In this document: piece after piece, positions 9,942 to 41,744 of the stretch
Layout of the letters: each line of letters opens with the position of its first letter
How positions within the stretch are numbered: position 1 is the first letter of the stretch
DNA from: Acididesulfobacillus acetoxydans
GTDB lineage: Bacteria; Bacillota; Desulfitobacteriia; Desulfitobacteriales; Desulfitobacteriaceae
NCBI RefSeq assembly: GCF_902729405.1
Contig: NZ_LR746496.1
Span: 4,030,001 to 4,094,000 of the forward strand
Direction of reading: 5' to 3'
DNA: 64,000 bases
Notes under the pieces: generated by a model
Told to the model about the DNA's origin: nothing
What the model saw: only the letters and a program-made list of their open reading frames with translations
Database searches by the model: none
Position numbers and translations under genes: made by a program

Positions 9942-9976
9942 ATAGCGGTACCAAGCAATGTTTAGTACCGCTATGT
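9940..9976. promoter_or_regulatory. Perfect 12-bp inverted repeat, likely PadR operator
   Basis: ACATAGCGGTAC (9940-9951) and GTACCGCTATGT (9965-9976) are exact reverse complements 13 bases apart. They cover the -10 box and the transcription start region. PadR proteins typically bind ATGT/ACAT-bounded palindromes at their own promoter, so autorepression is the obvious reading. Confidence 0.7.
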
Positions 9977-9996
9977 GTATCTGCGGAGGTAGCGCG

Positions 9997-10272
9997 GTGG
10001 ATAATCTAAGTGAGATGCTCAAAGGGGTGTTGGAGGGAATCGTGCCGGAAATCATCGCCCGGGGCGAAATCTACGGCTACGAGATTGTCAAGAAGCTGAA
10101 TGAACTCGGCTTGAAGGACATCGCCGAAGGCACCGTCTACGCCCTGCTGTTGCGATTGGAGAAGAACCGGCTGGTTCACATTGTCAAAAGGCCATCCGAG
10201 ATTGGCCCGCCCCGGAAGTTCTATACCCTCAATTCTCCACAAGGCAAGTGCTCAGATCGTCAAGAACCATGA
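9997..10272 (+). pseudogene. PadR-family regulator truncated by a TnpB remnant
   Basis: GTG 9997 has GGAGGT six bases upstream and is preferred to ATG 9958, which lies inside the operator. The frame encodes the PadR winged helix (IVPEIIARGEIYGYEIVKKL, then EGTVYALLLRLEKNRLV and RKFYTLN). Homology ends near 10236, where TnpB sequence begins. The C-terminal dimerisation helix is gone, and the last dozen codons read out of frame into the mobile element. The DNA-binding part is intact but the dimer interface is lost, so function is doubtful. Confidence 0.85.
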
Positions 10273-10576
10273 CCTTATTATCATGGAGGATCTAAGGATA
10301 AAAAACATGCTCCGAAATCACAAACTCGCCAAGAGCATCCAGGATGCCAGATGGGGGAAATTCGGAGACTACATTGAGTACAAAAGTTTACGCCAGGGGA
10401 AACGACACGTTCTAGTTGACCCCAAGGGCACATCGCAAACCTGCTTATGTGGAGCGCATGTCCCCAAAGACCTCAGTGTCCGTGTCCATGAGTGCCCCGT
10501 TTGCGGATTAGAGATGGATCGGGATCTAGTGAGTGCTAAACTCATCTTAGAGCGTGGACTGAGTGCCATGGCCTAA
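10238..10576 (+). pseudogene. tnpB: 3' part of a TnpB (IS605 OrfB) gene
   Basis: About 112 C-terminal codons of a TnpB RNA-guided nuclease. Visible are the RuvC segment IIMEDLRIKNM, the TSQTCLCG ... CPVCG zinc ribbon and the last RuvC aspartate in DRD. Intact TnpB has about 370-400 residues, so two thirds are missing, including the first RuvC aspartate. The first zinc-ribbon pair reads C-L-C instead of C-x-x-C, suggesting loss of a codon. The gene abuts the truncated padR. Confidence 0.85.
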
Positions 10577-10760
10577 ATATAGATTTTCTGTAGGGCGGGA
10601 ACCGCCCGAAGTTACGCCTGTGGAAATTGCGTAAGACCTCATCCAGCACTGAGAAACCTTGAGTACTGGACGAGGGCAACGGTTGATGAAACAGGAAGCC
10701 AACGTCCAAGTGTTCGCCGAGAAGCCCCCGCTTCTTAGCGAAGCGTAAGCGGGGGTGGTC
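10577..10760 (+). mobile_element. Right end of an IS605-type element, likely omega-RNA region
   Basis: Downstream of the tnpB fragment, 180 bases of non-coding DNA end in the stem CCCCCGCTT (10725-10733) / AAGCGGGGG (10747-10755), a subterminal hairpin typical of IS200/IS605 right ends. In intact elements this region yields the omega RNA that guides TnpB, with the guide lying just past the right end (here from about 10760). With tnpB truncated it is probably a relic. Confidence 0.6.
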
Positions 10761-10768
10761 CGCCAGAG

Positions 10769-10943
10769 TTTGTGGAGAAACCGGAAGTCAACAAGTTTGA
10801 GAAGCGGGGCCTGATTCAGTGTTTTGAGTATACGTTTGAACTTGCGCAGAAAACCATGAAGGATTATTTAGAAGAACAGGGTTTCATCGTCAGAAGTCCC
10901 CGCATGGCCATCCACACTGGATTTCAGATACAGTTAGCATCGG
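10769..10943 (+). pseudogene. Fragment of a HI0074-like nucleotidyltransferase-partner protein
   Basis: The segment EKRGLIQCFEYTFELAQKTM continuing to KDYLEEQGFIVRSPRMAI matches the core of the HI0074/HepT-like family that pairs with minimal nucleotidyltransferases. About 58 codons remain; the start is missing at the mobile-element junction and the end is lost before the HTY-type C-terminus. No partner nucleotidyltransferase was found nearby. Confidence 0.65.
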
Positions 10944-10970
10944 ACGCCTTTTCCAATAGAGCGGATGGGA

Positions 10971-12371
10971 CTAAGGCGAAGACTGATAATGAAGGGGAAG
11001 GTTGGCAATCTTTGCCGACATTTCGTCTATCGCAAACAAGTCATCCGCGGAGACATCCCGCAGGGCGGTCTTGCCGACCCCCCGGGTCATGAGACGCATC
11101 TCTTCGACGCAGGCGCGCAGGTAATTGGCGAGATACTTCGCACCTTCCTTACGATTGAACTTGTTCTTGTACCGGCCTGTGTACCAAAGCAGTTGGGCCG
11201 GGGGTTCATAGGGCAGTGCTTTGAACTCCTGATTGTGCAGCAAAGCCACCAGCGCCACAAACCCAATCTCCACACCATCGGCGCCGAGAGCCAGGGCTTT
11301 CAGAAAATCTCCCGGTGTTTCCAGGCCGCCCTCGACCAACAGTGAGACGCGGTCGCGCACCTTCTCCTTGTCCAAAAAGCGTGCGGCTCGGCAGAGGGCC
11401 GACACCGTTGGTAAGGAAAAATTGTCATGAATACACTCAGGGGACCAATGGGACGTGGCTTGGCCGCCATCGAGCGTGATGACGTCCGCACCGCCTTCCA
11501 AGATAAGGGCAAGGTCGCGTTCGATATCGTGCCCACAGGTGATCTTCACCCCGATTGGCACGCCCCCCGTAAGGTTGCGCAGGTCTGTGATGAGTCTCCC
11601 TAAGTCCTGCGGCTTTGGCACTTCGGGAAAATTGGCATGGTAGACGAGATCCTCCCCGCGCTTGAGTGCAAAAGCTTTGCGCAACTCAGGCGTGAATTCT
11701 CGCCAGGCGTATTTACTTCCGAGCCCCACCCAACCGCAATGGCCAAACTGAATCTCGATCATATCCGCTTGCCGTAAAATGTTGGGGTCGCGGTTAAATT
11801 TCGTGCGACCGTATTGCACGATGTAATGCTTGGCCGCCGCCCTTTCCCAGGCGTTAAACGGCCCGTCACCGCAGTTAGTGGCTGTTCCCGCTAGGGTGGC
11901 GGCTTCTGCCGCGGCGAGTTTCGCCTGTTTGCTGAGACCGTTACCGAAAGCCATGCCCGTAATCAAAATCGGGATGTCCAGCTTCATCGGTTTGGCTGCT
12001 TTCTTGCCCAGTACCAATGCGGTGTCTATTTCTACATCCTGAGGCGTGGAAAAGCGATATAACTGCGCGGGACTAAAGCGTATGCCTTCGAAACTGGGCA
12101 TAGGAAAGGGAGTGCCAAAACTCATGACCGGCTGACCCGACTCAGCCCGCAAGTTTGTATCCACCGTGGTCATGGGATTCATCCGCTTCGTCATGGCGTA
12201 GGCTTCAAAAATATTCCGATCATAAGGCTCCTGCAAAATCTTGGAGGCACTCTGCGTCACAAGCCGCTTAAAGACGAGCCTTCCCAATACGTAAATACCG
12301 GCCGCACCCAACGTGCTCAGCCCAACCATCTTCCCCGCGCGCCGCAAAACGTCATTATCTCTTTTGAGCAT
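10971..12371 (-). CDS. Membrane-anchored FMN-binding glutamate synthase-family protein
   Basis: A 466-residue member of the glutamate-synthase FMN-domain family (Glu_synthase). ATG 12371 was chosen with GGAGGG upstream. An N-terminal hydrophobic helix (about 15-32) is followed by a TIM-barrel domain with NCGDGPFNAWERAAAKHYIVQ, GVKITCGHDIERDLALILEGGAD and GLETPGDFLKALALGADGVEIG, which make up the FMN site. The amidotransferase and GXGXG domains of true GltB are absent, as is its 3Fe-4S cysteine cluster. Such stand-alone proteins are widespread and of uncertain role. It is flanked by remnants on both sides. Confidence 0.85.
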   Translation of the reverse strand: MLKRDNDVLRRAGKMVGLSTLGAAGIYVLGRLVFKRLVTQSASKILQEPYDRNIFEAYAMTKRMNPMTTVDTNLRAESGQPVMSFGTPFPMPSFEGIRFSPAQLYRFSTPQDVEIDTALVLGKKAAKPMKLDIPILITGMAFGNGLSKQAKLAAAEAATLAGTATNCGDGPFNAWERAAAKHYIVQYGRTKFNRDPNILRQADMIEIQFGHCGWVGLGSKYAWREFTPELRKAFALKRGEDLVYHANFPEVPKPQDLGRLITDLRNLTGGVPIGVKITCGHDIERDLALILEGGADVITLDGGQATSHWSPECIHDNFSLPTVSALCRAARFLDKEKVRDRVSLLVEGGLETPGDFLKALALGADGVEIGFVALVALLHNQEFKALPYEPPAQLLWYTGRYKNKFNRKEGAKYLANYLRACVEEMRLMTRGVGKTALRDVSADDLFAIDEMSAKIANLPLHYQSSP

Positions 12372-16479: not shown

Positions 16480-17643
16480 CTACACCTCACCCCCCCGTTT
16501 ATTGGCCAACAGCCACACATCGAGTGTGCTTTCGGTTTCTGCCAATGGCTCTCCCATTCTCGCCTGCAGCCATCCCGCAAAAGACGGATTAAGGCCCCAC
16601 CCGTTCAAAAAAGAAGGGTCTAACGGACGTTCCAAGCCGGCAATATCTTTAAAAGCCACAGGCTCCACCTTGACTTCGTTTAAGCCGACAACTTGATCCG
16701 TCAGGCCCAACATCACTTGACTCTTGCCTTCCCCCAAAGCCTTGATGGCTTCTTTTCCCAAAAGGATGGCTTCTCGTCGGTCGCGTTCACACACCGACCA
16801 GATGTTAGAGCGTTGCAGGATGCCTAGGTTCTCAGCGCGCGAAGGGACTCCTCGCTCGCGCAGTTTCAAAGACAGCAGCGGAGCAACCCCTCCCGGAATT
16901 GTACTGCTCTTATTTCCGCCAATGGCGTATTCTGAGATTGGCTTCCCCGATTCATCACGGGCCCCTTCGCTCACAACCGCCAATAAACAGGGATGCATGC
17001 GTAAATGTTCATCGACCCTCGCGAAAAACTCCTCAAGACTGAAAGGATGTTCGGGCACATACAACTGTATCGGCGGGTAGTTCGGCAGGGCAAGCTGCGC
17101 CAGGCTCGCGGCCGCTGCCAACCAACCCACATTTCGTCCCATTACCTCGACAATACGCACTCGTTCAAAATTGCGCATAGCCCAGAGGTCGAGCGCTATG
17201 GCTCCAACCGCTTCACCTATAAATTTGGCCGCGCTAAGATACCCCGGCGAGTGATCTGTTCCCCATAAATCATTGTCAACTGTTTTGGGAATCCCCAGCA
17301 CCTGAACGTCCGGGCAAACCGTGACAATTTGGTCGGCAGCCCACATCGTCCCATTTCCCCCAACCAACACAAGCTGCGAAATATCCCGCTGTTGAAGGTT
17401 TCTGCGCATGATCGTCAATCTTTCTGTGTTTAAAGGGTATCGCCCTGCCCCCAAGACTGCTCCGGGCTGAAACTTTAAGGATTCTAACTTGCTTTTCTCG
17501 ACACCCTCTAAGCGCATGGCCCGGTTCGTAACTAAACCTTCTATCCCATTGCAAAATCCCAGGATCTCACCGTATCGCCCAGAACATACCGCTGCTTCCA
17601 CAAACCCTGCCAAGGTCGCATTCAATACCGATGTTGGACCTCC
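16480..17643 (-). pseudogene. PFK-like kinase gene, 5'-truncated (copy 1)
   Basis: Closely matches the full protein at 47912-49084 from GGPTSVLN onward, but the first ten residues are missing. Upstream of 17643 homology stops, and an in-frame stop lies five codons further. Only a TTG (17625) could serve as start, which would drop the first phosphate-binding loop. The rest is intact, including GGNGTM, PKTVDNDL and MGRNVGW. It could still be translated, but the missing loop makes activity unlikely. It heads an operon with aldehyde dehydrogenase and EamA. Confidence 0.75.
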
Positions 17644-21032: not shown

Positions 21033-22307
21033 TTAGAAATTGGTTCCCTCGAAACCCCTAACCCGTACCTTGCGGTCAGAAACCAGCATGACCAGAATCG
21101 CCGACGCCACAAGGCACGCCGCCAGTACGTAAAAGCCTAGCATGAAGGAGTGGGTAGTCGTCTTGACAAAACCCATCATCCACGGACCGACCAGCCCGCC
21201 CAAGTTGCCGATGGCCCCGATGATAGCCATGGCTGGACCCACAGTGTTCGGCGGCAACGTGTCAGTCGGTATCGCCCACAACGGACCCTGGCGCGCGTTT
21301 ATACCGCCTTGGGCGATAGTCATGAACAGGACAGCCAACCACGGCAGCATCGTGCCCACGGCACCTAGCAGGAAATAGCCTATCGTAGCTATGAGCAAAA
21401 CGATCGCTACAACCGCACTCCGTTTGCCCGTCCGGTCGGATACGCGTGCGGCGTAGATCATCGTCCAAACCGAAAATGCATTGGGAATAACCAATAGGAG
21501 GCCAGTACCCAAATAGCCAACCCCCAGGGCCTTAATGATTGAAGGAGCCCAGAGGCTCAAGCCGTAAGTACCCATTATCGTTAGGAAATAGGCGAGCGTC
21601 AGCAGCAAAACCTTGGGGTGGTATATCATGCTGAAAGCATTGACCTTGACTTGGTTCTCGAAAGCTCTACGTTCCTCAGTGAGCTTGGTCTCGATGTATT
21701 CACGTTCTCCGGCGGGCAGCCACTTAGCCTGATAAGGATGGTCCTCGACCAGGAACCACCAGAAAACGGCCCATACCAGTGGCGGAATGGCTTCGATGAG
21801 AAGCATTATCCGCCAACTGGAGGTGGCGGTCAGAATCCAACCTGATAACGGCATGGTTATGATGCCGGTTATAGGCAGACAAATTTGCCAGTAAGCATTA
21901 GCACTCGCCCGCTCACCCTTGGGAAACCAGTCTGCGATCATAACCAGAACTGCCGGCCATATCGCGCCTTCCGTCACCCCTAGAAAAAACCGTGCCCAAA
22001 GTTCCTGGTTCACGTTTTGGGCAAGCGCGCTCCAAATGGCAAACAGGCTCCAAATTACCATCAATATAGTGATGAGTCTCTTGGCACTCCAGTGCTGGGC
22101 CAAGTATCCTCCCGGCACCTGCATGATCATATAACCGATGAAAAATATGCCCATAACCCATCCGGCCGTCGCATGCGTTATATGGAAGTCCTTAATCATG
22201 CCGGGAGCAGCAAAGCTGATATTGGTTCGATCCATAAAGGCCATCATATACATTACTACCGCTGCCGGGATGATATAGCGCCACCTAAAGTTGGTTACCT
22301 TTTCCAT
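21033..22307 (-). CDS. MFS transporter, anion:cation symporter (ACS) type
   Basis: A 424-residue, 12-helix major facilitator. The opening (RWRYIIPAAVVMYMMAFMDR, TNISFAAPGM) and GVTEGAIWPAVLVMIADWFP are typical of the ACS family that imports organic anions such as hexarates, hexonates or phthalate. AGGAGGTAT precedes the ATG. It ends the gene run PdxA-PdxA-LarA-cupin-MFS, so it should bring in the hydroxy acid handled by these enzymes. Confidence 0.92.
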   Translation of the reverse strand: MEKVTNFRWRYIIPAAVVMYMMAFMDRTNISFAAPGMIKDFHITHATAGWVMGIFFIGYMIMQVPGGYLAQHWSAKRLITILMVIWSLFAIWSALAQNVNQELWARFFLGVTEGAIWPAVLVMIADWFPKGERASANAYWQICLPITGIITMPLSGWILTATSSWRIMLLIEAIPPLVWAVFWWFLVEDHPYQAKWLPAGEREYIETKLTEERRAFENQVKVNAFSMIYHPKVLLLTLAYFLTIMGTYGLSLWAPSIIKALGVGYLGTGLLLVIPNAFSVWTMIYAARVSDRTGKRSAVVAIVLLIATIGYFLLGAVGTMLPWLAVLFMTIAQGGINARQGPLWAIPTDTLPPNTVGPAMAIIGAIGNLGGLVGPWMMGFVKTTTHSFMLGFYVLAACLVASAILVMLVSDRKVRVRGFEGTNF

Positions 22308-22871: not shown

Positions 22872-24176
22872 TTATTTTTCCGTACTTTCGACTGTAATGA
22901 CTTGGAGGCTGTGACTTATCACGGAAACCCTGGACCTTTCTCCAAACCGGGCTAATCCGTAATCCAATGCTTCGGCCATCGAGTCAAAATGCAACATGAA
23001 CATTTTTCTAACCTCTTCCGGTATTGTTGACCCAACAATGGCCAAGTCGGCGTGTTTGAGGGTACGAGCCAGAAGATATGCCCTATGCCCACCAGGAGGG
23101 ACACCTTCCGACCTGATGTTTTTGATAACTTCATCCAGATTTGAGGCACTTACGAATGCATTGTAGAAGCGCTGCTCGCCCAAACCCTGTCCTACCCCTT
23201 CAGGCATCGTGGCCGGAAGCACAATCAAGCCTCCTTGCCGCACCGAAGGGAAAGGACTGAAAGCCACATTGCTGGCCCCTCTAGTCGCCTGATACAGATT
23301 CGCATCCTTGGGAAAACTGACACCGGTGATTACTATGTCCGCCTGCTCCTGGATAGGTACCTTGTATACCTTGTCGGCAAACGATACGCCCGCCTCGAAA
23401 GCGGCGACGGCGCCTCCAGCCACTACCCTGACCAATTGACCGCTCGTATCAAGCACGCCGTTGACTATAAAGTGCAAGCCGACTTTTTCAGCAATTTCGC
23501 TGGCGTTCATGTGGAACCTGTTATGATCGATATTGCCTATTCTGGTATACGGATCATCAAAAACATCGATGGCATGCTGCCAACCTATGGTTTCCTCACC
23601 GGCAACCCCGATTGCTATGGCTTTCCGAGCACCACTGTAACCGGCAAAGAGATGGGGCTCGATTATACCCGTCGATATTCTTAGGTCTGCCTCATATACC
23701 AGTTTGTTAAGGTAAATTGGACAGTTGAGAGATGTCTTGCCTGCGAAGACAAGGTTTTCTTTATCGGTCGGATTATGATTGACCACTTCAATTTTGGATA
23801 CAATGTCAGACCCCAACTTATTTGCCAATTCGTTACGTGTGCACGGCCTATGCATCCCCGTAGCGACAACTATTGTTATCCTGGCGTTCTCAATACCGGC
23901 CCCAGATAATTCTGACAATATTACTGGCAAGAAGCGGTCGTCAGGGCAAGGACGGGTGATATCCGTTACCACTATGACCACTTTTTTGGGTCTTTTTTGC
24001 GCAGCGATTGTGCTTAGTCTAGGTGTCCCTACAGGATGTTCCAGGGCATGCTCTATGATGTTCTGGGGAGACGTATCGGCCGCAACTAGTTTTGGTTCAA
24101 TAATCTGCCCCAGATTTTGGCTGTGCAGATTGACCTCCACAAAACCTTTTCCGTTAGGGACGCGTACTGTTGGCAT
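22872..24176 (-). CDS. LarA-family nickel-pincer racemase/epimerase homologue 1
   Basis: A 434-residue DUF2088/LarA homologue. The expected catalytic set is present: Arg75 in TDITRP, His109 in GMHR, and His175 with Lys185 ten residues on in EPHLFAGYSGARK; Lys holds the nickel-pincer nucleotide. LarA proteins racemise or epimerise 2-hydroxy acids by hydride transfer at nickel. ATG 24176 follows AAGGGGGGT. The larB, larC and larE cofactor genes are not in the window. It sits between two PdxA homologues and a cupin/MFS pair, so its substrate is probably a polyhydroxy acid, not lactate (inference). Confidence 0.88.
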   Translation of the reverse strand: MPTVRVPNGKGFVEVNLHSQNLGQIIEPKLVAADTSPQNIIEHALEHPVGTPRLSTIAAQKRPKKVVIVVTDITRPCPDDRFLPVILSELSGAGIENARITIVVATGMHRPCTRNELANKLGSDIVSKIEVVNHNPTDKENLVFAGKTSLNCPIYLNKLVYEADLRISTGIIEPHLFAGYSGARKAIAIGVAGEETIGWQHAIDVFDDPYTRIGNIDHNRFHMNASEIAEKVGLHFIVNGVLDTSGQLVRVVAGGAVAAFEAGVSFADKVYKVPIQEQADIVITGVSFPKDANLYQATRGASNVAFSPFPSVRQGGLIVLPATMPEGVGQGLGEQRFYNAFVSASNLDEVIKNIRSEGVPPGGHRAYLLARTLKHADLAIVGSTIPEEVRKMFMLHFDSMAEALDYGLARFGERSRVSVISHSLQVITVESTEK

Positions 24177-24313
24177 AATTACCCCCCTTAATTCCAAAGA
24201 TCCTTAAGGCATATGTGTACCATTTTACCCATTCGCAGACGCTACATGGCCCGGACGATAAACATTTCCCGAAAGAGTCCTGATAATAAGCCATCCTATG
24301 AAGCGCCGCGCAT

Positions 24314-25321
24314 TTAATTTGCGGACAGTGCGCTACGGTTCATATGCATGGATGAAACCACCCTGATGGTTTCCAACATGCTCCCAGGATCAGCTATTCC
24401 TTTCCAAGCTATGTCCTGGGCACAGCCGTGACCGACGGTAGCAAACAATACGGGCGTGCCTATAATCAAGCCGCAACTCTTGTCAAGTGCCAGGGTTTTC
24501 AGCGCTATATGCCCCTGGTCATGGTACATTCCTACGTAGGCATCGTATTTATGCTCAAGGCACTTGTAAAACAAGGAATCACCAGCAAACGGCCCATAGA
24601 CATCAATACCTTGGGCCCTGGCAGCCTCAATCGCAGGAGAAATCTGAAATATTTCCTCATCGCCAAACATACCTTCCTCGCCAGCATGGGCATTTAGCCC
24701 GGCAACCGCGATTCTAGGCCGTTCCACGCCAAGCAACTTCACAGCTTCATTAACCTTGCTGACAATATCCAAGACCAAATCCTTATTTATCAAATCGCAT
24801 GCTTTTCGCATAGAAACGTGCAAAGTGGCACTGGCTACCCTTAAGTCACCTGCAACGAGCATCAGGAAAGCTCGTTTTGCTGAAGTTAATTTGGTGACCA
24901 GATTGGGATAACCGGCAAAGCTGATACCAGCTTGATCAACCGCCTTCTTGCTGTGGGGACCGCCGATCGCGGCATGCACCGCGTTAGCTTTTAAAAATCC
25001 AACTGCCCGATTGGTATATTCGATCATGGCCCGTCCGGTCATGCCATCGGGTTTACCTACGTGGAAGGAAGCAGAATCAATGTTCTTGCAGTCAACCATG
25101 TCAATTGTGCCAAGCTCATAACGGCCTTCCGCCGGGTCGCTCACAATCCGCGTCTGTAGATGTAATTTAAGTAAATCGTTGGCTTTCTGTAAAACATTCT
25201 GGTCGCCAATGACCAGTGGCCGGCACATATCGTAAACGTATTCCTTGGCAAGGGCCTGGGCTACTATTTCTGGTCCGATTCCAGCCGCGTCACCAATAGT
25301 AATGGCTACAATTGGTTTCAT
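24314..25321 (-). CDS. PdxA-family dehydrogenase, paralogue A
   Basis: A 335-residue homologue of 4-hydroxythreonine-4-phosphate dehydrogenase. The three metal histidines of PdxA are visible in TLHVS, GLNAHAGEEG and YHDQGH. The substrate-contact motif GHTE of PdxA is replaced by GYPN. The ATG overlaps the stop of the next PdxA paralogue (TAATG), so the two are translationally coupled. Without pdxB/C/J neighbours a role in vitamin B6 is unlikely. PdxA2-like enzymes oxidise threonate/erythronate phosphates, but their usual DUF1537 kinase is absent here. Confidence 0.85.
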   Translation of the reverse strand: MKPIVAITIGDAAGIGPEIVAQALAKEYVYDMCRPLVIGDQNVLQKANDLLKLHLQTRIVSDPAEGRYELGTIDMVDCKNIDSASFHVGKPDGMTGRAMIEYTNRAVGFLKANAVHAAIGGPHSKKAVDQAGISFAGYPNLVTKLTSAKRAFLMLVAGDLRVASATLHVSMRKACDLINKDLVLDIVSKVNEAVKLLGVERPRIAVAGLNAHAGEEGMFGDEEIFQISPAIEAARAQGIDVYGPFAGDSLFYKCLEHKYDAYVGMYHDQGHIALKTLALDKSCGLIIGTPVLFATVGHGCAQDIAWKGIADPGSMLETIRVVSSMHMNRSALSAN

Positions 25322-26316
25322 TATTCCTTAATACCTCCCCTCAGACTTACCAACTTGATGGTCTCGATAATAACACCCGGATCGGCTATTCCCTTCCAGG
25401 CAATATCGAGGGCGCAACCGTGGTCTACGGTTGCCCAGTTTATGGGCACCCCTATGGCTACCGCGGAGGCCTTTTTGAAGGCCAAGGTTTTCACGGGTAT
25501 GTGGGCCTGGTCATGGTACATAGCGACATAGGCGTCATATTTTCCGTCCATAACGTTATAGAACAGGGAATCCGCGGGCCATGGACCTGACGCATTGATA
25601 CCCATCCCTCGGGCAGCCTTTACTGCTGGTTTGATATGTCTTTCATCTTCGTCACCAAACATGCCATCCTCCCCGGCATGAGGATTCAACCCGGCGACGG
25701 CGATCCTCGGTTCGACGACGCCAAACATTTTTACCCCTTCATCGACCGCTTTTATTGCTTCCAGTACCAATCGTTCGGAAATCAGGTTGCAGGCATCCCT
25801 GAGCGATACGTGCAGCGTGACGTTGGCCACCCGCAGATTTCCGGCCACCAGCATTAAAAACGGATACTTGGCCCCCGTCATCCTGGCAATCAACCCCGGG
25901 TAGCCGTCAAAATGAATTCCGGCGTCGGCCGCCGCCTTCTTGCTGTGCGGCCCTCCCACGGCCCCCTGGGTCTTCTTGTCTATGCACAGCCTAACAGCCA
26001 CTTCCGTGTATTCGATCATCGCCCGTCCTGTAACGGCGTTGGGCTCTGCCGGCCTAAAGGCACCCATGGGGATATTGTCCAGGTCAATCACATCGACCTT
26101 GCCGTCTTCCCAGGCGGCCTCCTCGAAATGCTTGATTACATTGAAATCGACGTTGACGTTGAACCGTCTCCTGGCTAGATCCAATATCTTGAAATCACCG
26201 ATAAGCAGTGGCTGGCAGTAAGTAAAAATCGACCCTTCCTCTATGGCCCTCAACAAAATCTCCGGTCCTATACCCGCTGCCTCAGACATAGTGATGCCGA
26301 TAATTGGTCTCGTCAA
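25321..26316 (-). CDS. PdxA-family dehydrogenase, paralogue B
   Basis: A 331-residue paralogue of the neighbouring PdxA protein, with intact metal ligands (TLHVS, GLNPHAGEDG, YHDQAH) and GYPG where PdxA has GHTE. TTG 26316 was chosen: AAGGAGA lies nine bases upstream and the resulting length matches the paralogue. Earlier in-frame starts add 32 residues without homology. Tandem PdxA-like genes with coupled translation suggest two related substrates or a mixed dimer. PdxA is a dimer whose active site is built from both chains. Confidence 0.85.
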   Translation of the reverse strand: MTRPIIGITMSEAAGIGPEILLRAIEEGSIFTYCQPLLIGDFKILDLARRRFNVNVDFNVIKHFEEAAWEDGKVDVIDLDNIPMGAFRPAEPNAVTGRAMIEYTEVAVRLCIDKKTQGAVGGPHSKKAAADAGIHFDGYPGLIARMTGAKYPFLMLVAGNLRVANVTLHVSLRDACNLISERLVLEAIKAVDEGVKMFGVVEPRIAVAGLNPHAGEDGMFGDEDERHIKPAVKAARGMGINASGPWPADSLFYNVMDGKYDAYVAMYHDQAHIPVKTLAFKKASAVAIGVPINWATVDHGCALDIAWKGIADPGVIIETIKLVSLRGGIKE

Positions 26317-26701
26317 TCCGACCCATCTCCTTCTTATCCCTGATATTCCTGTGAGATTCCCCGACTTAGTGTCAGACAATTTTGCCAACCGCGGATTCGC
26401 TGCCGAATGCATGCATTGTTATCCTCTCCAGCACTTGCGTCGTCCCCGGGACCGGGGACACGAAGGCGACATCCCTAGTACACAGGAGGAGCGACCTATC
26501 TCCTCCCTGCCTAGCGTGCTTTATGCTCTGCCAACCCTCCTAAAAGCGTAGGCGCGCTTCTTCTCCCCAAAGAAACTTTGATTCCCTCTCTTACCTGTGT
26601 TCCCGCCGAAATGGATGTCTAAATTATCACATGCAAAGTCCATGCCAAACAAGAAAACAGCGTCAGACCAACCTTTCGCCCAGAAGGAAGTGTCGCCCCG
26701 T

Positions 26702-26716
26702 GCAACGTTTCGTTGC
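26702..26716. repeat. GCAAC-N5-GTTGC palindrome, copy 1
   Basis: GCAACGTTTCGTTGC, an inverted repeat with 5-bp arms, within a longer segment resembling 27292-27323. It could be an activator site or part of a repeated coding remnant (both copies read GNExLxGATLP on the minus strand). Confidence 0.45.
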
Positions 26717-27308
26717 CCCCCCGGCCGATGACCGGCACTTCCAGTTTGGTGGCGGCCATCCTTTCTGGGTACCCCGGAGGGTTGTTCGAGCCTGCTTCTT
26801 ATTTTCTTCTGAGATGGACCGGGATTTTGGAGAACATTTCCGGCAGGACGAGAACGCGTGGATCCTGGCTGGCCGACATAACGCTTGGCTATGGCTACTA
26901 GCTCAGAGATTCCGACATAATTGATATCTGCCCCTCTGCAGAGAGCCTGCGCCACCCCTCCCTCCTTGTCTAATTTAATCAGTACCGAGAATTAGGACCA
27001 AAGATCCACAAAGTCAGGATGCAAAGGATATTTGCCTTGCGGCAATTAGCTGATCATCTCGGTCTTGATTCGACGGCCCAAAGCAAAGGATCAATACCGC
27101 CAGACAAACAACCTCCTCGAAGCAGTGAGGGACGCAAGTGAGAGATTCCCCAAAATTCTATCAATCTTTTTGCCCCTACTCGAAGATAACTGATGTTAGC
27201 GGCTCACCAAAGCCTCACGACAGCTTTCTAAAGTTGAGTAGCAAGATCTGTGCCAACCCAAAAAGGCCGGAGGGAAGGCCTCTTCCCCGACCGGAAGTGT
27301 TGCTCCTT

Positions 27309-27323
27309 GCAACATTTCGTTGC
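27309..27323. repeat. GCAAC-N5-GTTGC palindrome, copy 2
   Basis: GCAACATTTCGTTGC, one base different from copy 1 and about 600 bases away, close to the end of the sigma-54 activator gene. Confidence 0.45.
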
Positions 27324-27529: not shown

Positions 27530-29416
27530 TTAGTCCTTCCCAACCTTTCCCTCTAACTTTTTCAGTCGTCGCCACAAAGTAGATCGGTCGACACCGAGTA
27601 AGGCGGCGGCCTGTGTCTTGTTCCCCCCGGTCAGGAGCATGGTTTCGATCAGCAACCTCCGGTCAAATGAATATCCTTCGTCCTTGACTTCCTCGTCCGC
27701 CAAGTCATAAAACTCGTTGGCATCAATAACTATACCCGGGGACCTGACCGCAGCCCTTTCAATCACGCTGGACAGTTCCCTAATATTCCCCGGCCAATTA
27801 TAATCGTTCAACACGCTCAAGGCTGCAGGAGACAATTCCAGTACTGGTTTCCGATATTTTTCGCAGTGTTTCTGGAGGAAATGCTTTGCCAAAAGGGGAA
27901 TGTCTCCTTCCCGTTCTCTCAATGGCGGTATTTTCAAGCGCAATACATTTAACCTGTAATACAGATCCGCTCTGAAGCGGCCCTCTTCCACCATAATCCG
28001 TAAATCTTTGTTCGTAGATGCGATTACGCGGATATTTACCTTAATAATATTCCCGTCGCCTATACGCATGATTTCTCTTTCCTGTAACGCGCGCAGCAGC
28101 TTAACCTGAAACTCCGGGGTAATTTCACCAATCTCATCCAGAAAGACCGTACCGCCTTCGGCCATTTCGAGTAGACCAACTTTTCCTTCCTTGCGGGCGT
28201 CGGTGAAAGCTCCGCCGACATAGCCGAACAATTCGCTCTCCAAGAGATTGGTCGGAATAGCGGCACAATTAAAGGCGATAAAGGGCTCCAGACAGCGCGG
28301 ACTCTGATTATGGATGGCCTGGGCAAACAGTTCTTTGCCCACACCTGTCTCGCCTTGTATTAAGACGGCTGAATCCGCGCTGCTATATGCTTTTGCCTGG
28401 GCGATGACAGCTTTGATAATCTTACTCCGGCCGAGGACGGAGTCAAAAGTGTTTCGGGCAAAATGCCCCTTCTTGATTATCTCCTTGTGTAACTTCCGGT
28501 GTACTTCCTGAATCAGTTCCGATGCTTCAAGCGTAGCTACGGCACCGACAACTTCTTCATTAACAACAATGGGAACCCTGCTGACGACGACCCGAGTCAT
28601 TGCCATATCACATATAAGCCCTAATTCCGTCTTACCCGCCTCTAGGGTTTTGCGCAAATTAAGAGAAGGTGCAATCTCCATGCAGGGCTTCCGGATTATT
28701 TCGTTATGCTTCTTGCCAATCAGCTTTTCCGCTTGAGTATTGGCCGCTATAATGAATCCGTGTTTATCGACGGCAATAATTCCACTGTGCGTATAGTTGA
28801 GGATCGTCCGCAACTGCTCCTGTTGCAGGCGTTCATCCCTCTTTATCCTAACAATTCTCGATGCCTCCTGGTAGGCGGCGATAAGGCTTTCCCGGCTGGA
28901 ACGGATAAGAATCCCCTTCAGTCCAAAGCCAATAGCAGTTTTGACAGCGAATGAATCACCAATAATCACCTGTACACCCTGTTTCTTCAGCAATGCGACT
29001 TTGTCGATGCAATCATCCGCGGTCTCTCGCAAAACAACCCGCAAATTAGAGAGCGAAAGAATCAGGGCAACTCTATTAGCCCCTTCAATGATATTGGAAA
29101 AACCCATCAGGGCTATCTCATGGCTAATCTTCATTCCCTCATACAATGCCTCCAAAATATCAAAGCCGCTTATGGGTATCTCTATTACCGGTATATCATG
29201 TTGGCCCTGACTCAATTTTAAAGCGATACCCCCACGGCTCACTATGGCATCCATCTGTTCCTTCTTGGCTTTAGAGATCAAATCACCGGACTCAGCCAGC
29301 AAAGCGTTCTTTACCTTTACATCTAAATTGGATTCGAGATTCAACCGTGTCGCCTCTTCGGCTAATTCTATATACGGAGCGATGAGCATGATCTTCGCGT
29401 CTATATTGAGTTTCAT
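27530..29416 (-). CDS. PrpR-type sigma-54-dependent transcriptional activator
   Basis: A 628-residue enhancer-binding protein. The N-terminal PrpR_N-like sensor (about 10-190) is followed by a PAS-like part (about 200-310), an AAA+ domain (about 325-560) and a Fis-type HTH (TQAAALLGVDRSTLWRRLKKL). Walker A is GETGVGKE and Walker B VFLDEIGE. The sigma-54 contact loop reads GAFTDA instead of GAFTGA. ATG 29416 has AAAGGA eight bases upstream and is preferred to an ATG two codons earlier. Prototype PrpR senses 2-methylcitrate; here the neighbours (PdxA, LarA, MFS) suggest a hydroxy-acid signal. No -24/-12 promoter was found by eye. Confidence 0.9.
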   Translation of the reverse strand: MKLNIDAKIMLIAPYIELAEEATRLNLESNLDVKVKNALLAESGDLISKAKKEQMDAIVSRGGIALKLSQGQHDIPVIEIPISGFDILEALYEGMKISHEIALMGFSNIIEGANRVALILSLSNLRVVLRETADDCIDKVALLKKQGVQVIIGDSFAVKTAIGFGLKGILIRSSRESLIAAYQEASRIVRIKRDERLQQEQLRTILNYTHSGIIAVDKHGFIIAANTQAEKLIGKKHNEIIRKPCMEIAPSLNLRKTLEAGKTELGLICDMAMTRVVVSRVPIVVNEEVVGAVATLEASELIQEVHRKLHKEIIKKGHFARNTFDSVLGRSKIIKAVIAQAKAYSSADSAVLIQGETGVGKELFAQAIHNQSPRCLEPFIAFNCAAIPTNLLESELFGYVGGAFTDARKEGKVGLLEMAEGGTVFLDEIGEITPEFQVKLLRALQEREIMRIGDGNIIKVNIRVIASTNKDLRIMVEEGRFRADLYYRLNVLRLKIPPLREREGDIPLLAKHFLQKHCEKYRKPVLELSPAALSVLNDYNWPGNIRELSSVIERAAVRSPGIVIDANEFYDLADEEVKDEGYSFDRRLLIETMLLTGGNKTQAAALLGVDRSTLWRRLKKLEGKVGKD

Positions 29417-29758
29417 GGCCATATTCCTTTCTATAATGTACACCAAAGGTATGTTCAGTGTCATTAATTACTTAGCTGAAAGAACATTTCGAGACACAGG
29501 AGAATGGGCTTTGCCAACATTTAACCATAGTCCGTGCAGTGTCAAAGATATAGAATGGTTACTCCTGGAAGCACGTGCTGCCAAGGGGCAATTGGCTTAA
29601 GTTACACTTAGATTGGGATTACATATAACCTTGATCCCCGGCAAAATTTATACCTACGGAACTTTTGATTTCATTTGGCCAATTTAGTTGAAGAATAATC
29701 TGCTTTCAAGCTTGTTTGTTGCAGAACTTCTTGAAGTTTATTGTTTTTCCCTTGTATT
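29417..29758. other. Intergenic stretch, no supported feature
   Basis: Between the sigma-54 activator and the IS1634-type element. A plus-strand coding-like tail (ending KDIEWLLLEARAAKGQLA at 29600) can be read but has no start or known family. Confidence 0.4.
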
Positions 29759-34227: not shown

Positions 34228-35418
34228 CTAACACGTTGGCATGCACCGGTACCGGTTAGCCATCTCGTCGAGACTCACAACCTCCACTTGCGCGGCATGC
34301 CCGACCGCACCGAATTCCACAATCAGAGAACCAACAACCTCCCTCACCCCACTTTTGACGCAGGCCAGAATATCGCGGATATCCCCGACGCTTCCTTTTC
34401 CCGCAAAATCCTTCCCTTCGCCCACAATAAAGTCCTCCATAATGGGAGTCAAATACCCTCTGGGATCGAATTGCTCAGGGTTTCTCTCCATGAGTTCCCA
34501 GATTGTGCTCACAGCTTCAGCAACAGAATTCCGTTTCTTCGAAGAGTTCCGGGCAAAGTACTCTCTGATATTTCTGGTGACCGCCAAGCGAATATCGGTG
34601 TCCACATTAATCTTGCCGATACCGGATTTGATCACGGACTTGAGTTCATCCAGAGGTATGCCGTGGGCTTGGCTTATTTTTCCACCCAGTTGATTAATCT
34701 CCTCGACGATATATTGCGGAACCACGGACGAACCGTGGGAAACCAGGACGCCGAAGATTCCCTCATGCTTCAGGTTCTCCGCCACAGCAATGACGATCTC
34801 CTTGCGTAAACGGACGTTCTCGCCTTTGACGGCCCCGTGTTTTGTCCCATAAGAGATCGCCAAACAGTCCACCCCGGTCTTCTTGAAAAACTCAACGGCT
34901 TTCAGGGGGTTTGTATAAGTCGAGTGTTCGGAGAAAACATCATCTTCCATGCCGGAAAGGACGCCAAGTTCGCCTTCCACGCTGACCCCTCGCGCATGGG
35001 CATACTTGACGACCTCACGGGTCAGTTCCACGTTTTCGTCAAAAGGAAGCGGGGAACCGTCGATCATGACCGACGTATAGCCACCGGCGATAGCAGCCTT
35101 AACTGATTCAAAATCCTTACCATGATCAAGATGAAGCACAATCGGGATGGGTGAGTCTTGGGCAAGCTTTTTCACAGCCTCCCCAATTCTCCTGGCGCCT
35201 CTGCGCTTGTCCTCAATCGTTCCTTTCATGAAATCGGCCCTTCCACCCATGAAGGCATTCGCCAGATCGGCTCCCTGCACAATGCCGGCTGAGCGAAACA
35301 TTTCATGCACTTCAATCACGGCTTGGGCTTGAACGACACTGTTGACGTTAAAAGCTCCTTGAGCAAAACCATGTTTACGGGTTGCCTCCAGCAAAGGTCG
35401 GAGCGGTATGAGTGGCAT
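34228..35418 (-). CDS. Class II fructose-bisphosphate-aldolase-family protein (long form)
   Basis: A 396-residue zinc aldolase. Zinc and active-site signs are LHLDHGKDFESV (catalytic Asp and first His), EGELGVLSG, KHGAVKG, LVSHGSS and the phosphate-binding INVDTDIRLA. It is about 80-100 residues longer than GatY/KbaY types, including a C-terminal cap resembling larger FbaA forms. The start lies one base after the LarA stop (TGAGATG), so the two are coupled. It should cleave a ketose-1-phosphate-like compound to DHAP and an aldehyde; the TIM-like and aldehyde dehydrogenase neighbours fit that. Confidence 0.9.
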   Translation of the reverse strand: MPLIPLRPLLEATRKHGFAQGAFNVNSVVQAQAVIEVHEMFRSAGIVQGADLANAFMGGRADFMKGTIEDKRRGARRIGEAVKKLAQDSPIPIVLHLDHGKDFESVKAAIAGGYTSVMIDGSPLPFDENVELTREVVKYAHARGVSVEGELGVLSGMEDDVFSEHSTYTNPLKAVEFFKKTGVDCLAISYGTKHGAVKGENVRLRKEIVIAVAENLKHEGIFGVLVSHGSSVVPQYIVEEINQLGGKISQAHGIPLDELKSVIKSGIGKINVDTDIRLAVTRNIREYFARNSSKKRNSVAEAVSTIWELMERNPEQFDPRGYLTPIMEDFIVGEGKDFAGKGSVGDIRDILACVKSGVREVVGSLIVEFGAVGHAAQVEVVSLDEMANRYRCMPTC

Positions 35419-35419
35419 C

Positions 35420-36859
35420 TCAGAACTCCCCTTCCTTCAGGCCCAAATGAACACTCGCCGTTTTGAAAGTCCTGGGCAGAGCCAAGATGTTCGGAGTCTT
35501 TCCGACGTACTTTTCCGCATCCTGCAAAGCCTCTGCAAAAGTTGCCCGTGTCTTCATCCCCATACTTCTGGCGTAACCGGGTTCATAAGCCCCCACCACA
35601 TAAATGGCCGCGCAATGTTTTTCGGCAATATGGGCACAGGAAATCATGGAAAACGTGTGATAGGGGTGATAGCCAAAATTGAAGCGATACTTGTCAATAA
35701 ACTTCTGATTATGGGCCAGATACTCGCCATACTTCTCTAAATCAGGCAGGACATTGTGGTAGTCTTTCTGAAACAATTCATAGACCGTTCTGTAAGCTGG
35801 AAATTCTTCATCATGGAAATAGCCATTGCAAATCGATGAACAGATGACCACACAATTATCTTTCAAGATCCTTTTATGCCTGACGATCTGAGCGGATATG
35901 GCCTGCATCATAAGAATCGGATTGGTGCCCATTCCGTTGCCGTAGTGAAAATTCTGAGGCATACCAAAAACCAAAACGTCGTACTTTTTCCTGGCCCACG
36001 GTACGTACGTCCTTTGGTCCGCGATTTCCCAGGACAGTGGCTGAATCTCCTTCGCATAGCCAGTAAATACAGCAATTTGTCGTTGATAGGTATCTAGAAC
36101 CGCATCACAGGTAAAGAATTTCTTGCCCATACATTTTTCCATGTGCTGACCAATGGAATCAAATTTTCTTCTCATGAGGCTGTGATTGTTGACCGGTGTA
36201 AAATCGTCACGATGCATGACATAAGGCACATGGTGGGAAGCTATGGACTTCCAGTGGCTTATCCCTGTCGCACAATGCTTATAGCCCCCGGAATATCCCC
36301 CATAGGGATTGCCTAAAACATGACCAATCAGTACGGCAAGATCGGCCGCATAGACGTCTTTATTCATGATGACCGGATTGCCCATCTCATCAAAGCCAAG
36401 GTCCACTAAGTTGTTCCAGTTTTCGCTGTCATGATTCGCAATTTGATGGGACCACCAAAATTCGTTGAACAATTCATCACCCAATATCTTCTGGATTTCT
36501 TCCCTCGTCATCTTGCGGTGCAGCCCATTGCTGCATATCAGCTGGATATCCCGCTTCTCCACTCCGGCTTTCAGACATTCCTCGATAATGATGGGAATAG
36601 CGACCTTCCGATGCGAATTTTCCTGGAATCCGCCCTTGACTCGGTCCGGAAAGACGATGGCGACCTTCGACCCTTTTTTGACCTGTTGGGAAATTGGCAA
36701 AACCCCAATTGGATTCAATATGGATTCCCTCGTCGCTTTACTGATGTCCCGAAGCACGGGTGGATCTGGCACAGTTTCTCCTGGTACGAAAACGTCCGTC
36801 TGGTCAGGTAATTCCGCTTCCAAGAGACCTTCACCGTATTCAAAAGCTATCTTTTTCAC
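35420..36859 (-). CDS. LarA-family homologue 2 with altered active site
   Basis: A 479-residue DUF2088/LarA homologue, longer than the other two. GTG start with AAGGAGGAAAC upstream. Lys194 (GGYSGGYK), the pincer-nucleotide ligand, and His114 in GLHR are kept. The histidine ten residues before the lysine is Asn184 (GNPYGGYSGGYK), and the arginine motif reads PDRVK rather than DITRP. It therefore belongs to a divergent LarA clade, and its substrate or catalytic base must differ. It sits between a TIM-like isomerase and a class II aldolase, consistent with C2 epimerisation of a sugar-acid intermediate (inference). Confidence 0.82.
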   Translation of the reverse strand: MKKIAFEYGEGLLEAELPDQTDVFVPGETVPDPPVLRDISKATRESILNPIGVLPISQQVKKGSKVAIVFPDRVKGGFQENSHRKVAIPIIIEECLKAGVEKRDIQLICSNGLHRKMTREEIQKILGDELFNEFWWSHQIANHDSENWNNLVDLGFDEMGNPVIMNKDVYAADLAVLIGHVLGNPYGGYSGGYKHCATGISHWKSIASHHVPYVMHRDDFTPVNNHSLMRRKFDSIGQHMEKCMGKKFFTCDAVLDTYQRQIAVFTGYAKEIQPLSWEIADQRTYVPWARKKYDVLVFGMPQNFHYGNGMGTNPILMMQAISAQIVRHKRILKDNCVVICSSICNGYFHDEEFPAYRTVYELFQKDYHNVLPDLEKYGEYLAHNQKFIDKYRFNFGYHPYHTFSMISCAHIAEKHCAAIYVVGAYEPGYARSMGMKTRATFAEALQDAEKYVGKTPNILALPRTFKTASVHLGLKEGEF

Positions 36860-36953: not shown

Positions 36954-37898
36954 TTACCTACGGCTCTCTACATACCGCCCAATGATTCTGCTTAAATCGT
37001 TTGGGTAAAACCCTATGTTACCCGCAAACTGGGTCAAGGCAACCAAACCTCCCCCAATGGCTTTGACTTTAGCTATGGCCCTGGCGTTATCCTCTTTGAG
37101 ACCTCCTCCGTAGACAATATCCGTTTCCACGCCCATTAACTCCTGTACAACCTCTTTAATGCAGGCAGCGGCAAAAGCGATATCGTCGGGTCCTGCAGGA
37201 ATTTTCCCCGGCCCGATTGCCCAGATGGGTTCATAGGCGATAACCACCCGTCGGCCCGTTCTTTCTGTGAAAACTTCTTTTAGCTCAGCTTCAAGCTGGC
37301 CGCGCAAGACCTGTTTGACTCTTGCTTTCTGCTCTGGCAAACTTCCCTCTCCTCGTTCTTCGGCGGTTTCCCCTACACACAGAAGGACATCCATTCCCGC
37401 CTCTAGTGCGCAGAGAACTTCCTGGTTAATAATTGAATAGACCGCTTCTTTAGCTTTTCTGTTTTTTCCCTCATCATACACCGTTTCGGGATCGTAACGA
37501 GCCATAATGTCCAACTTATCTTTCATTTCTTCGGAATGGCCAACAAGAACCCAGGTGCAACCCATATTCCTTGCTGCAGTTGCGGGTCTATTCGTGGTAA
37601 AGGCGCCAAAATTCCCGCCTTGGCGGATATCTTCCCGGAAGACTCCCTGACAACCTATTTTGATGGTTTTTGCAGTTTCGGGCGGATACGAGAAAAGTTT
37701 GTCGTAAGCATTGAGGATTAATCCTTCCGGCAAAAAAAAGATGAGTTCTACATCTTTAAGTTTTCCCAACCCTTGTCCAACGCTCTCTGCCATAATCCAG
37801 GAAATCCATTCTTTAGGATTCCTAACCGAGCAGACCCCTCCCAATTTCTTGGGCACATCAAAGCGTTTGAGATTTACAAATATTTCTATCACAGCCAT
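36954..37898 (-). CDS. Triosephosphate-isomerase-like protein
   Basis: A 314-residue TIM homologue with the catalytic Asn/Lys in VNLKRFD, His in WVLVGHSEEM and Glu in VIAYEPIWAIGPGK. The phosphate loop YGGGLKEDNA and tail LTQFAGNIGFYPNDLSRII are present. It is longer than glycolytic TIM (about 250). The start is ATG 37898 or GTG 37892; TTGGAGGCA is at the start. The frame stays open upstream into a PFK remnant, but the own ribosome site marks a separate gene. It may act on DHAP from the aldolase, or on another ketose phosphate like erythrulose-phosphate isomerases. Confidence 0.82.
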   Translation of the reverse strand: MAVIEIFVNLKRFDVPKKLGGVCSVRNPKEWISWIMAESVGQGLGKLKDVELIFFLPEGLILNAYDKLFSYPPETAKTIKIGCQGVFREDIRQGGNFGAFTTNRPATAARNMGCTWVLVGHSEEMKDKLDIMARYDPETVYDEGKNRKAKEAVYSIINQEVLCALEAGMDVLLCVGETAEERGEGSLPEQKARVKQVLRGQLEAELKEVFTERTGRRVVIAYEPIWAIGPGKIPAGPDDIAFAAACIKEVVQELMGVETDIVYGGGLKEDNARAIAKVKAIGGGLVALTQFAGNIGFYPNDLSRIIGRYVESRR

Positions 37899-37900
37899 TG

Positions 37901-38195
37901 CCTCCAAATACTTTTTCGGTACCAGCATCGCCAGGTAAGTACCTACATCGCCAAAATACACATCCCGGCCCTTTATCAAAAACGGTGGCGCTACGGATTC
38001 CCCCCCAACCCTCCCGCAACCCCTCACTGACCACCACGACACCCCGCCTAGTCGATCGTGTAAACCTCGAACAGCTGCGAGGAACTCTTCCCGTTTAAAG
38101 GGTCTTTCCGGTAAATAAATAAGATGCGCAGCATCACCCTTGGTTTTTTGTGCCAAGAGTGATGCTGATGCGATCCAACCGACATTTCTTCCCAT
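37901..38195 (-). pseudogene. Internal fragment of a PFK-like gene fused ahead of the TIM-like gene
   Basis: Codons from MGRNVGWIASASLLAQ through LIYLPERPFKREEF match the middle of PFK-like kinases. After a frame disturbance near 38040 (VVVVSEG in a neighbouring frame), the part ESVAPPFLIKGRDVYFGDVG and TYLAMLV continues the PFK pattern up to the TIM-like start. The upstream end, at about 38195, joins a transposase fragment on the opposite strand. Only about 100 codons remain. Confidence 0.7.
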
Positions 38196-38510: not shown

Positions 38511-39950
38511 CTAAACTTCTGTCGCAACATATTTGACATCCATGAATTCCTCCAGCCCTGTCCTTCCGCCCTCACGACCTAGCCCGCTCTGTTTTACTCC
38601 CCCCATCGGGGCATATGCCACGGAGGGCAAGGCATTGTTTAGACCAATGATCCCGAATCTGAGAGATTCCGTAACCCGCGTGGATCGGGATAGAGTATTG
38701 GTGTACACATAAGCCGCCAATCCCATATCTGTGTTATTTGCCTTTTTAATCGCCTCAGCCTCATCTGCAAATTTAGATATCGGTACAACAGGAGCAAATA
38801 ATTCTTCCCTCGCAAATGCAGCACTTTCGGGCACGTTTTCCATGACAACCGGAGAAACATAATAACCTTCAACAGGTACCACCGCTTTAGACACTAAATG
38901 TTTTCCGCCAAGCGTCGCCGCTTCGCGGATCAACCCTTCAACCCTGTTTTTGCTCGCGAGATTTATCAGTGGACCAAGATCGACCGCCGGATCCATAAGT
39001 GGATTCCCTATCCTCATCTTAGCAATCTTGCTCACGAAAATTGAGACAAATTCATCATAAACCCTTTCATGTACGTAAAAACGGTTGGCAGCTATACAAG
39101 ACTGCCCGTTATTCCTGAATTTCGCAATCATAGCGCCCTCAACAGCCTTTTCAAGATCTGCATCATCAAAGACGATGAAAGGTGCATCTCCTCCTAATTC
39201 CAGAGCCAGGCGCAACATCCCATCCGCCGCTAGCCGCATTAAAGCACGCCCAACAGAGGTGGAGCCCGTGAAACTCACAACCCGTACGGCGGGATGCTTC
39301 ATCATTGCTTCTGCCGTAGATGCTGCCGGACCTAAGACCAAATTTGCCACCCCTTTAGGAACGCCGGCATCCTGAAGACATCTAAATAGCTCAATCACAC
39401 TTAACGGGGCTTCATCGGATGCCCTTGCCACAACGGAGCAACCTGCTGCCAAAGCCGGCGCTATCTTCCGCGCTTGAATAGAAACCGGAAAATTCCACGG
39501 AGTAAGGCATAAAGCGACCCCTGCCGGTTGGCTGTAGGCAATATGCCGCTTATTGGCCGCGTCGCTCGGGATGCAACTCCCGTACGGTCTGCGAATCTCT
39601 TCGGCAAACCACTGGAAATATTCGGCGGCAAAATTCACCTCTCCAACTGCCTGAGATAAGGTTTTCCCGGTTTCGGAAGCTAAAACCTCTCCGATGTGAT
39701 CTGCTCTGTGCCGCAACAGTCCGGCTACTGCAGTTAAGATATTAGCCCGTTGACGCACGGAAGTTGAACACCATCCTGTGAAAGCGTGGGCCGCGGTTTC
39801 CACAGCTAGTAAAGCGTCACCGCTGTCCCCATGCCCTATTTGACAGATAGGTTCTCCTGTTGCCGGGTTTGTCACCTCTTTGCTACCTTGCTTAATGGGC
39901 TCCCTCCATTCTCCGTCAATGAAAAGCGACTTCATAATTTCCCCGGTCAT
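38511..39950 (-). CDS. NAD(P)-dependent aldehyde dehydrogenase (semialdehyde type), copy 2
   Basis: A 479-residue paralogue of the enzyme at 14929-16371, nearly identical across the active site: Cys in NGQSCIAANRF, Glu in LELGGDAPFIVFDDAD, and the FTGSTSVGR loop. ATG 39950 lies ten bases after GGAAGGAGA. It follows the IlvD-type dehydratase gene by 68 bases, so it may belong to the DapA-IlvD-ALDH run. There the aldolase would release an aldehyde for it to oxidise. Confidence 0.92.
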   Translation of the reverse strand: MTGEIMKSLFIDGEWREPIKQGSKEVTNPATGEPICQIGHGDSGDALLAVETAAHAFTGWCSTSVRQRANILTAVAGLLRHRADHIGEVLASETGKTLSQAVGEVNFAAEYFQWFAEEIRRPYGSCIPSDAANKRHIAYSQPAGVALCLTPWNFPVSIQARKIAPALAAGCSVVARASDEAPLSVIELFRCLQDAGVPKGVANLVLGPAASTAEAMMKHPAVRVVSFTGSTSVGRALMRLAADGMLRLALELGGDAPFIVFDDADLEKAVEGAMIAKFRNNGQSCIAANRFYVHERVYDEFVSIFVSKIAKMRIGNPLMDPAVDLGPLINLASKNRVEGLIREAATLGGKHLVSKAVVPVEGYYVSPVVMENVPESAAFAREELFAPVVPISKFADEAEAIKKANNTDMGLAAYVYTNTLSRSTRVTESLRFGIIGLNNALPSVAYAPMGGVKQSGLGREGGRTGLEEFMDVKYVATEV

Positions 39951-40018
39951 AAATCTATTTTCTCCTTCCAACTTTTCGCTGAATTATTACCTTTCCATCA
40001 ACCAAACAAGGCCGCAGA

Positions 40019-41695: not shown

Positions 41696-41744
41696 ATCTT
41701 TTACCCCTTTCGTCCACCTGACAACCACTCCAAATTTCCAAAAC

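Follow-up and report, generated by a model that had tools for sequence, protein, structure and literature searches.

What do two adjacent PdxA-family dehydrogenases act on when neither carries the GHTE motif of the family? This question is raised by a gene pair in the stretch of DNA analysed here (64 kb in all, henceforth the window), PdxA-A (24314..25321, minus strand) and PdxA-B (25321..26316, minus strand), which match the dehydrogenase profile PF04166 with 281 and 294 bits (gathering score 27) and which, by a genome-wide search, are the only PF04166 genes of this 4.5-Mb genome. Both reading frames are intact and both genes are under purifying selection, dN/dS against the sister species (G001) being 0.13 for the core of PdxA-B and about 0.20-0.21 for PdxA-A. 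A longer reading frame for PdxA-B would begin at 26412, but its first 32 codons show a dN/dS near 2 in the same comparison; because of this break, and of the AAGGAG site in front of the TTG at 26316, we place the start at this TTG, as the preliminary description of this DNA had done. The TAATG overlap that it reported at the B/A junction is also real in the window genome, whereas in the sister species a 1-nt indel (an extra G) puts the end of B 6 nt ahead of the ATG start codon of A; therefore it is not the overlap that is conserved but only the closeness of the two genes. The AlphaFold2 model of PdxA-A (pLDDT 92.5) has the PdxA fold, with a Z of 41 to PdxA structures in a fold search, and its remote matches to MaeB, PlsX, phosphotransacetylases and IDH3 indicate no more than a fold shared at a distance.

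Head to tail on the minus strand, PdxA-B and PdxA-A are followed by genes that profile searches assign to a LarA-family, NPN-dependent 2-hydroxyacid racemase/epimerase (22872..24197), a small cupin (PF07883; 22365..22751) and an MFS transporter (21033..22307; the D-galactonate transporter subfamily scores best, below its cut-off), all codirectional. The whole cluster is kept in the sister species, and by dN/dS the LarA, the MFS protein and the regulator described below are likewise under purifying selection.

In an alignment with E. coli PdxA, A and B retain the three metal histidines and have GYPN (A) or GYPG (B) in place of GHTE, just as first described; GHTE itself is present in 110 of 146 aligned PF04166 rows. 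Residues H166, H211, H266, D247, D267 and K274 (E. coli numbering) are present in A and B alike. In contrast, H136, T137, N283 and R292, the residues of E. coli PdxA that bind the phosphorylated substrate, are replaced by Y, P, G/A and F/W, respectively. With four of four phosphate anchors replaced, this is more than a change of motif and argues against a phosphorylated substrate. Neither protein carries the combination of GHTE, N283 and R292 that marks PdxA and PdxA2, and the pair stays below the equivalog cut-offs of NF002992 (338.3 and 304.8, cut-off 470), TIGR00557 (271 and 278.6, cut-off 290.35) and NF002891 (231.2 and 212.6, cut-off 583). The preliminary description had found neither a DUF1537 kinase nor a pyridoxine gene nearby. 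No DUF1537 kinase (PF07005) is encoded anywhere in the window genome, and its PLP is made by PdxS, encoded elsewhere. Characterised 4-phosphothreonate/erythronate dehydrogenases, in which a common GYPx motif would have counted against the preliminary interpretation, carry GHTE in the rows examined. Since the anchors are lost, the kinase is absent and TphB, an enzyme of a non-phosphorylated substrate, has the same motif, the earlier suggestion that A and B might act on such a substrate is well supported.

It is this last point that changes how the motif should be read. The preliminary description treated GYPx as an unexplained loss, but the motif by itself is already known and marks a clade that holds the solved TphB enzymes. 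The terephthalate dihydrodiol dehydrogenase 4ATY reads CPHSETA...GYPG, whereas 8ZHY/8ZJ3 and their series (8ZHY-8ZJ7) read CPHHETA...GYPS; the titles of that series, which came up in the fold search, name a terephthalate 1,2-cis-dihydrodiol dehydrogenase/decarboxylase with 3,4-dihydroxybenzoate, hydroxybenzoates, NAD and CO2, and no paper naming the series was found in the open-licence literature. TphB carries out a metal-dependent oxidation followed by loss of CO2 (review PMC13040137). At the positions of H136, T137, N283 and R292 it has Y, P, A and F/L. Annotated plasmid operons that have Rieske dioxygenase subunits beside the gene, among them one on pRHL2 of Rhodococcus jostii RHA1, likewise show GYPx; in the eight plasmid rows the motif is GYPx seven times and GFQP once (the eighth record, L157, carries no annotation).

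When the motif stretch was masked, the GYPx proteins still formed one clade, with support of 100/98 in a careful tree and 99 in a quick tree that included PDB fragments; a convergent origin of the motif is thus unsupported. In the careful tree, again with the motif masked, this clade has two branches, one for TphB (100/99) and one for the window pair (99/89), the latter comprising the window pair, the sister species, Desulfovibrio sp. UBA6079 (L003, a MAG) and G504 (L143). Besides the window pair and its sister species, the branch is represented by the Desulfovibrio MAG and two genomes of the MAG's phylum. A and B are joined at 91/45, a weak joining that at most suggests a duplication within their own lineage; the longer branch leads to B. 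By the GYPx motif and by their place in the clade of 4ATY and 8ZHY, A and B belong with TphB, and they share with it the loss of the phosphate anchors and the metal ligands. They differ in that the CPHxETA motif, found in eight of ten Rieske-linked or PDB TphB rows (the other two have APHSETA and CPCSETA), gives way to GPHSKKA in both copies, and in that E. coli position 215 is G/N in TphB versus E/D in the window branch. Furthermore, TphB is accompanied by a Rieske dioxygenase, whereas the window genome encodes no Rieske ring-hydroxylating oxygenase alpha subunit (PF00848), on which ground we reject an aromatic dihydrodiol role there. What is new, then, is a branch that is sister to TphB, linked to LarA and free of an oxygenase partner, present in two species of one genus and in three genomes of another phylum, in one of which a LarA gene adjoins the GYPx gene.

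A class-wide protein search found the tandem pair in the window genome and its sister species only, and of 398 genomes of the phylum 11 matched the GPHSKKA DNA pattern, all translated matches outside the window genome (G000) being unrelated frames. Of 80 PdxA loci from GTDB species, 64 have DUF1537 within reach, and the sole GYPx locus among them is that of the Desulfovibrio MAG, where DUF1537 is missing; this genome has a single GYPx copy, plus a second PdxA of the ordinary GHTE type. The MAG locus (982-11726) runs LarA, TRAP transporter, RpiB, sigma-54 activator, GYPx PdxA, split transketolase and HIBADH. It shares with the window a LarA (45% identity over 411 residues), a PrpR-type activator and the GYPx PdxA, and additionally has the TRAP transporter genes, the RpiB-like protein, the split transketolase and a protein resembling HIBADH or tartronate-semialdehyde reductase; from its gene content it looks like an uncharacterised acid catabolic pathway. 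In G504 (L143), a GYPP gene lies between a 2-oxoacid:ferredoxin oxidoreductase and a 2-hydroxyacid dehydrogenase resembling glyoxylate/hydroxypyruvate reductase, and at L144 a GYPP gene at a contig end adjoins what is, from translated sequences, an apparent tripartite tricarboxylate transporter. In the third relative, G646, the locus stops at a contig edge, leaving one side of the neighbourhood visible. GHTE is also absent from another PF04166 group, which lies on a long branch, mostly has GPNNKKA...GAID and was seen in L034 and in members of the same family and order (L089-L094, L098); its metal histidines are kept in the member checked (L090).

Close to this operon, too, are the PdxA2 systems, in which D-threonate/D-erythronate 4-phosphate dehydrogenases work with a DUF1537 kinase. 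These share the fold and the metal site with A and B, and they too occur in catabolic operons, sometimes with LarA and a PrpR-type sigma-54 activator. However, they keep GHTE, N283 and R292, they have the kinase, and the specificity pattern of their LarA differs from that in the window. At five such loci (L079, L082, L137, L035, L065) a LarA gene lies near the DUF1537 kinase and an ordinary GHTE PdxA, suggesting that these LarAs may be C2 epimerases of four-carbon sugar acids.

The LarA proteins offer a hint at the substrate. The window protein keeps the equivalents of R75, H108, H174 and K184, as expected of the LarA superfamily. At the positions of W358 and T359 it has H-R, and the LarA of the Desulfovibrio MAG has H-K, whereas the LarAs at the five loci with GHTE PdxA and DUF1537 have W-Q or A/G-L. 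Malate racemases have H/Q and K at positions 358/359, where the lysine probably holds the second carboxylate, and the malate racemases LarAH5, LarAH6 and LarAH62 also epimerise tartrate, a side activity at C2 (PMC11770544). The H-R and H-K pairs in the GYPx-linked LarAs are suggestive of a substrate with a second carboxylate, in a comparison of two loci with five, and the kinship with TphB points the same way. The window LarA shares with LarAH5, LarAH6 and LarAH62 the catalytic and cofactor residues and a histidine plus a positive residue at the two specificity positions, but it has R in place of K and falls below every NCBIfam equivalog cut-off (363.9 versus 500 for LarAH6).

The genome also encodes LarC, which serves the LarA cofactor; the 245-aa frame (C1:2781132-2781839 of the window genome) matches positions 1-235 of the 375 of the model only, possibly reflecting a LarC1/LarC2 arrangement read by frameshifting. 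Elsewhere in the window, beside a class II aldolase gene (34228-35418), a second LarA-like protein is encoded (35420-36859, minus strand). It scores best against LarAH14/15/16 (208.8 bits, where the cut-off is 740), and by the N that stands in place of H174 it is similar to the LarAs with a single histidine that were described in 2025 (PMC12611868). Next to these are a 413-aa ORF (36954-38195, minus strand), either a fusion or a remnant, whose C-terminal part is a triosephosphate isomerase domain and whose N-terminus resembles PPi-phosphofructokinase over about 69 residues, and a sugar-acid catabolic cluster (38511-47440, minus strand) of aldehyde dehydrogenase, IlvD/Edd dehydratase, DHDPS-family protein, ADH and ABC sugar transporter. 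Two genes of the phosphofructokinase family lie at 16480-17625 (PPi-PFK type by NCBIfam) and 47912-49084.

The earlier list of neighbours was sound as to LarA, cupin and MFS, but it left out the regulator and its promoter-like sequences. Upstream of the operon, and codirectional with it, a profile match identifies a sigma-54-dependent activator of the PrpR_N - PAS - AAA+ - HTH type (27530..29464, minus strand). Between its gene and PdxA-B lie two -24/-12 elements on the minus strand, a proximal promoter-like site, TGGCATGGACTTTGC (26633..26647), and a distal one, TGGCACAGATCTTGC (27241..27255), which is a perfect match and the sole zero-mismatch one in the 64-kb window. The sister species retains the proximal site as TGGTATGGATCTTGC, whereas the distal site has decayed there to TAGCGCAGATCTTGC. 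Matches with up to two mismatches are in total not above chance, and the claim therefore rests on position, perfect match and conservation. An inverted repeat, TGTTGC-N5-GCAACA (27298..27314, zero mismatches), is a candidate activator site about 58 bp, centre to centre, from the distal promoter, and a degenerate candidate copy with two mismatches (26691..26707) is about 59 bp from the proximal one. Computed from the coordinates, each repeat thus lies upstream of its promoter at the same spacing of about 58 bp, and the two pairs look like a duplicated sigma-54 promoter module.

From the clade, the residue losses, the gene order, the promoter-like sequences and the selection on the genes we infer the chemistry, the substrate class and the roles of the two copies. 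On balance, we think that A and B are probably NAD(P)-dependent and metal-dependent beta-hydroxyacid decarboxylating dehydrogenases which, as TphB does with its dicarboxylic diol, act on a non-phosphorylated and probably dicarboxylic 2,3-dihydroxy acid, within a sigma-54-controlled catabolic operon that includes LarA and the MFS transporter. Our best guess at the substrate is tartrate or a C5-C6 aldarate. The MFS protein would import the acid, and LarA would epimerise C2 of the non-phosphorylated 2-hydroxy-dicarboxylate, so that either epimer could enter. The PdxA-like enzymes would then oxidise the hydroxyl at C3, with loss of the C1 carboxylate as CO2, the oxidative decarboxylation expected of PdxA itself (4-hydroxythreonine-4-phosphate dehydrogenase), whose fold and metal histidines they share. 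From tartrate one would expect hydroxypyruvate or its tautomer tartronate semialdehyde, and from a hexarate a pentulosonate, which transketolase could split to yield tartronate semialdehyde. Judging from gene company, hydroxypyruvate or tartronate semialdehyde is what the transketolase, tartronate-semialdehyde reductase and hydroxypyruvate reductase of the relatives (L003 and L143) would use. The PrpR_N activator would turn the operon on via sigma-54 in response to the substrate or an intermediate. Several points fit this account less well: the LarA signature comes from two independent loci only, and the window LarA has R, not K, and scores below the cut-offs; the locus of the MAG would also fit a sulfo-sugar acid, given its analogues of sulfolactaldehyde reductase and sulfo-transketolase; and the downstream enzymes of that locus are absent from the window operon, where the cupin is left unexplained. 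In the open-licence literature we found no paper that connects PdxA with either tartrate or LarA.

One may also consider a sugar acid with a single carboxylate (a tetronate, pentonate or hexonate) that is oxidised in unphosphorylated form to dihydroxyacetone or a ketose. Loss of the phosphate anchors would suit such a substrate, LarA homologues epimerise gluconate and deoxytetronates (PMC11770544), the MFS protein is nearest to D-galactonate transporters, and IlvD/Edd, DHDPS-family, aldehyde dehydrogenase and class II aldolase genes lie in the same window. These sugar-acid genes belong to another operon, however, and the H-R/H-K pair of LarA together with the TphB kinship indicates a second carboxylate, so that we regard this substrate as somewhat unlikely.

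A separate issue is why there are two copies. In PdxA, the metal site is shared across the dimer, and A and B could form an obligate heterodimer, an idea already raised in the preliminary description, in which each active site is built from both, like the tandem paralogues of the IDH superfamily in human IDH3, whose alpha-beta heterodimers are among the remote fold matches. The adjacent, overlapping genes and the retention of both under purifying selection in two species would agree with this. Nevertheless, each copy retains all the catalytic residues checked, which leaves no sign of a division of labour, the overlap is missing from the sister species, and the pair is not obligatory, because the Desulfovibrio relative manages with one GYPx copy. 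An obligate heterodimer therefore seems unlikely to us, and the simpler reading has two homodimers, A and B each probably pairing with itself and most likely differing in stereo- or substrate preference, for example for opposite C3 configurations, since C3 is a position that LarA cannot change.

Much less probable is a sulfonated sugar acid, with the sulfonate in the place of the phosphate. Here the split transketolase and HIBADH-like reductase of the MAG would lead from a sulfo-ketose through sulfolactaldehyde to dihydroxypropanesulfonate, and the RpiB-like isomerase of that locus and the match of the reductase to sulfolactaldehyde reductase (133.9 bits) could be taken in its favour. Yet 3-hydroxyisobutyrate dehydrogenase is the better match for this reductase (171.5 bits), the neighbours of the window genes include no identified sulfonate-specific gene, and the loss of R292 and N283 speaks against an anionic tetrahedral group at that site. 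Finally, that a tolerated change of motif is all that sets A and B apart from ordinary PdxA of B6 biosynthesis or from 4-phosphothreonate/erythronate dehydrogenases may be dismissed as extremely improbable: the fold and metal site are PdxA's, but all four anchors are replaced, the scores are below the PdxA and threonate-4-phosphate equivalog cut-offs, the genome has no DUF1537 kinase, the proteins sit in the TphB clade, and PLP from PdxS, together with the anchor loss, rules out the vitamin B6 role.

Returning to the dicarboxylic reading, it is possible, and we offer this tentatively, that these genes represent an unnamed route in which C2 of a 2,3-dihydroxy-dicarboxylate (tartrate or an aldarate) is first epimerised by the nickel-pincer enzyme LarA, after which a TphB-related pair of PdxA fold carries out an oxidative decarboxylation that leaves hydroxypyruvate or a pentulosonate; TphB would then be an aerobic offshoot of, or a sister to, this sugar-acid enzyme. 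Nearly all PF04166 proteins are annotated as vitamin B6 enzymes, and a clear branch point, at which the anchors were lost and GYPx was gained, divides the enzymes of phosphorylated acids from those for which such a substrate is improbable. TphB, an enzyme of plastic-monomer degradation, thereby gains a sister group in non-aromatic metabolism, which may provide a testable account of the origin of a xenobiotic pathway enzyme, and the pairing with LarA would offer a testable substrate class for an unassigned group of nickel-pincer epimerases.
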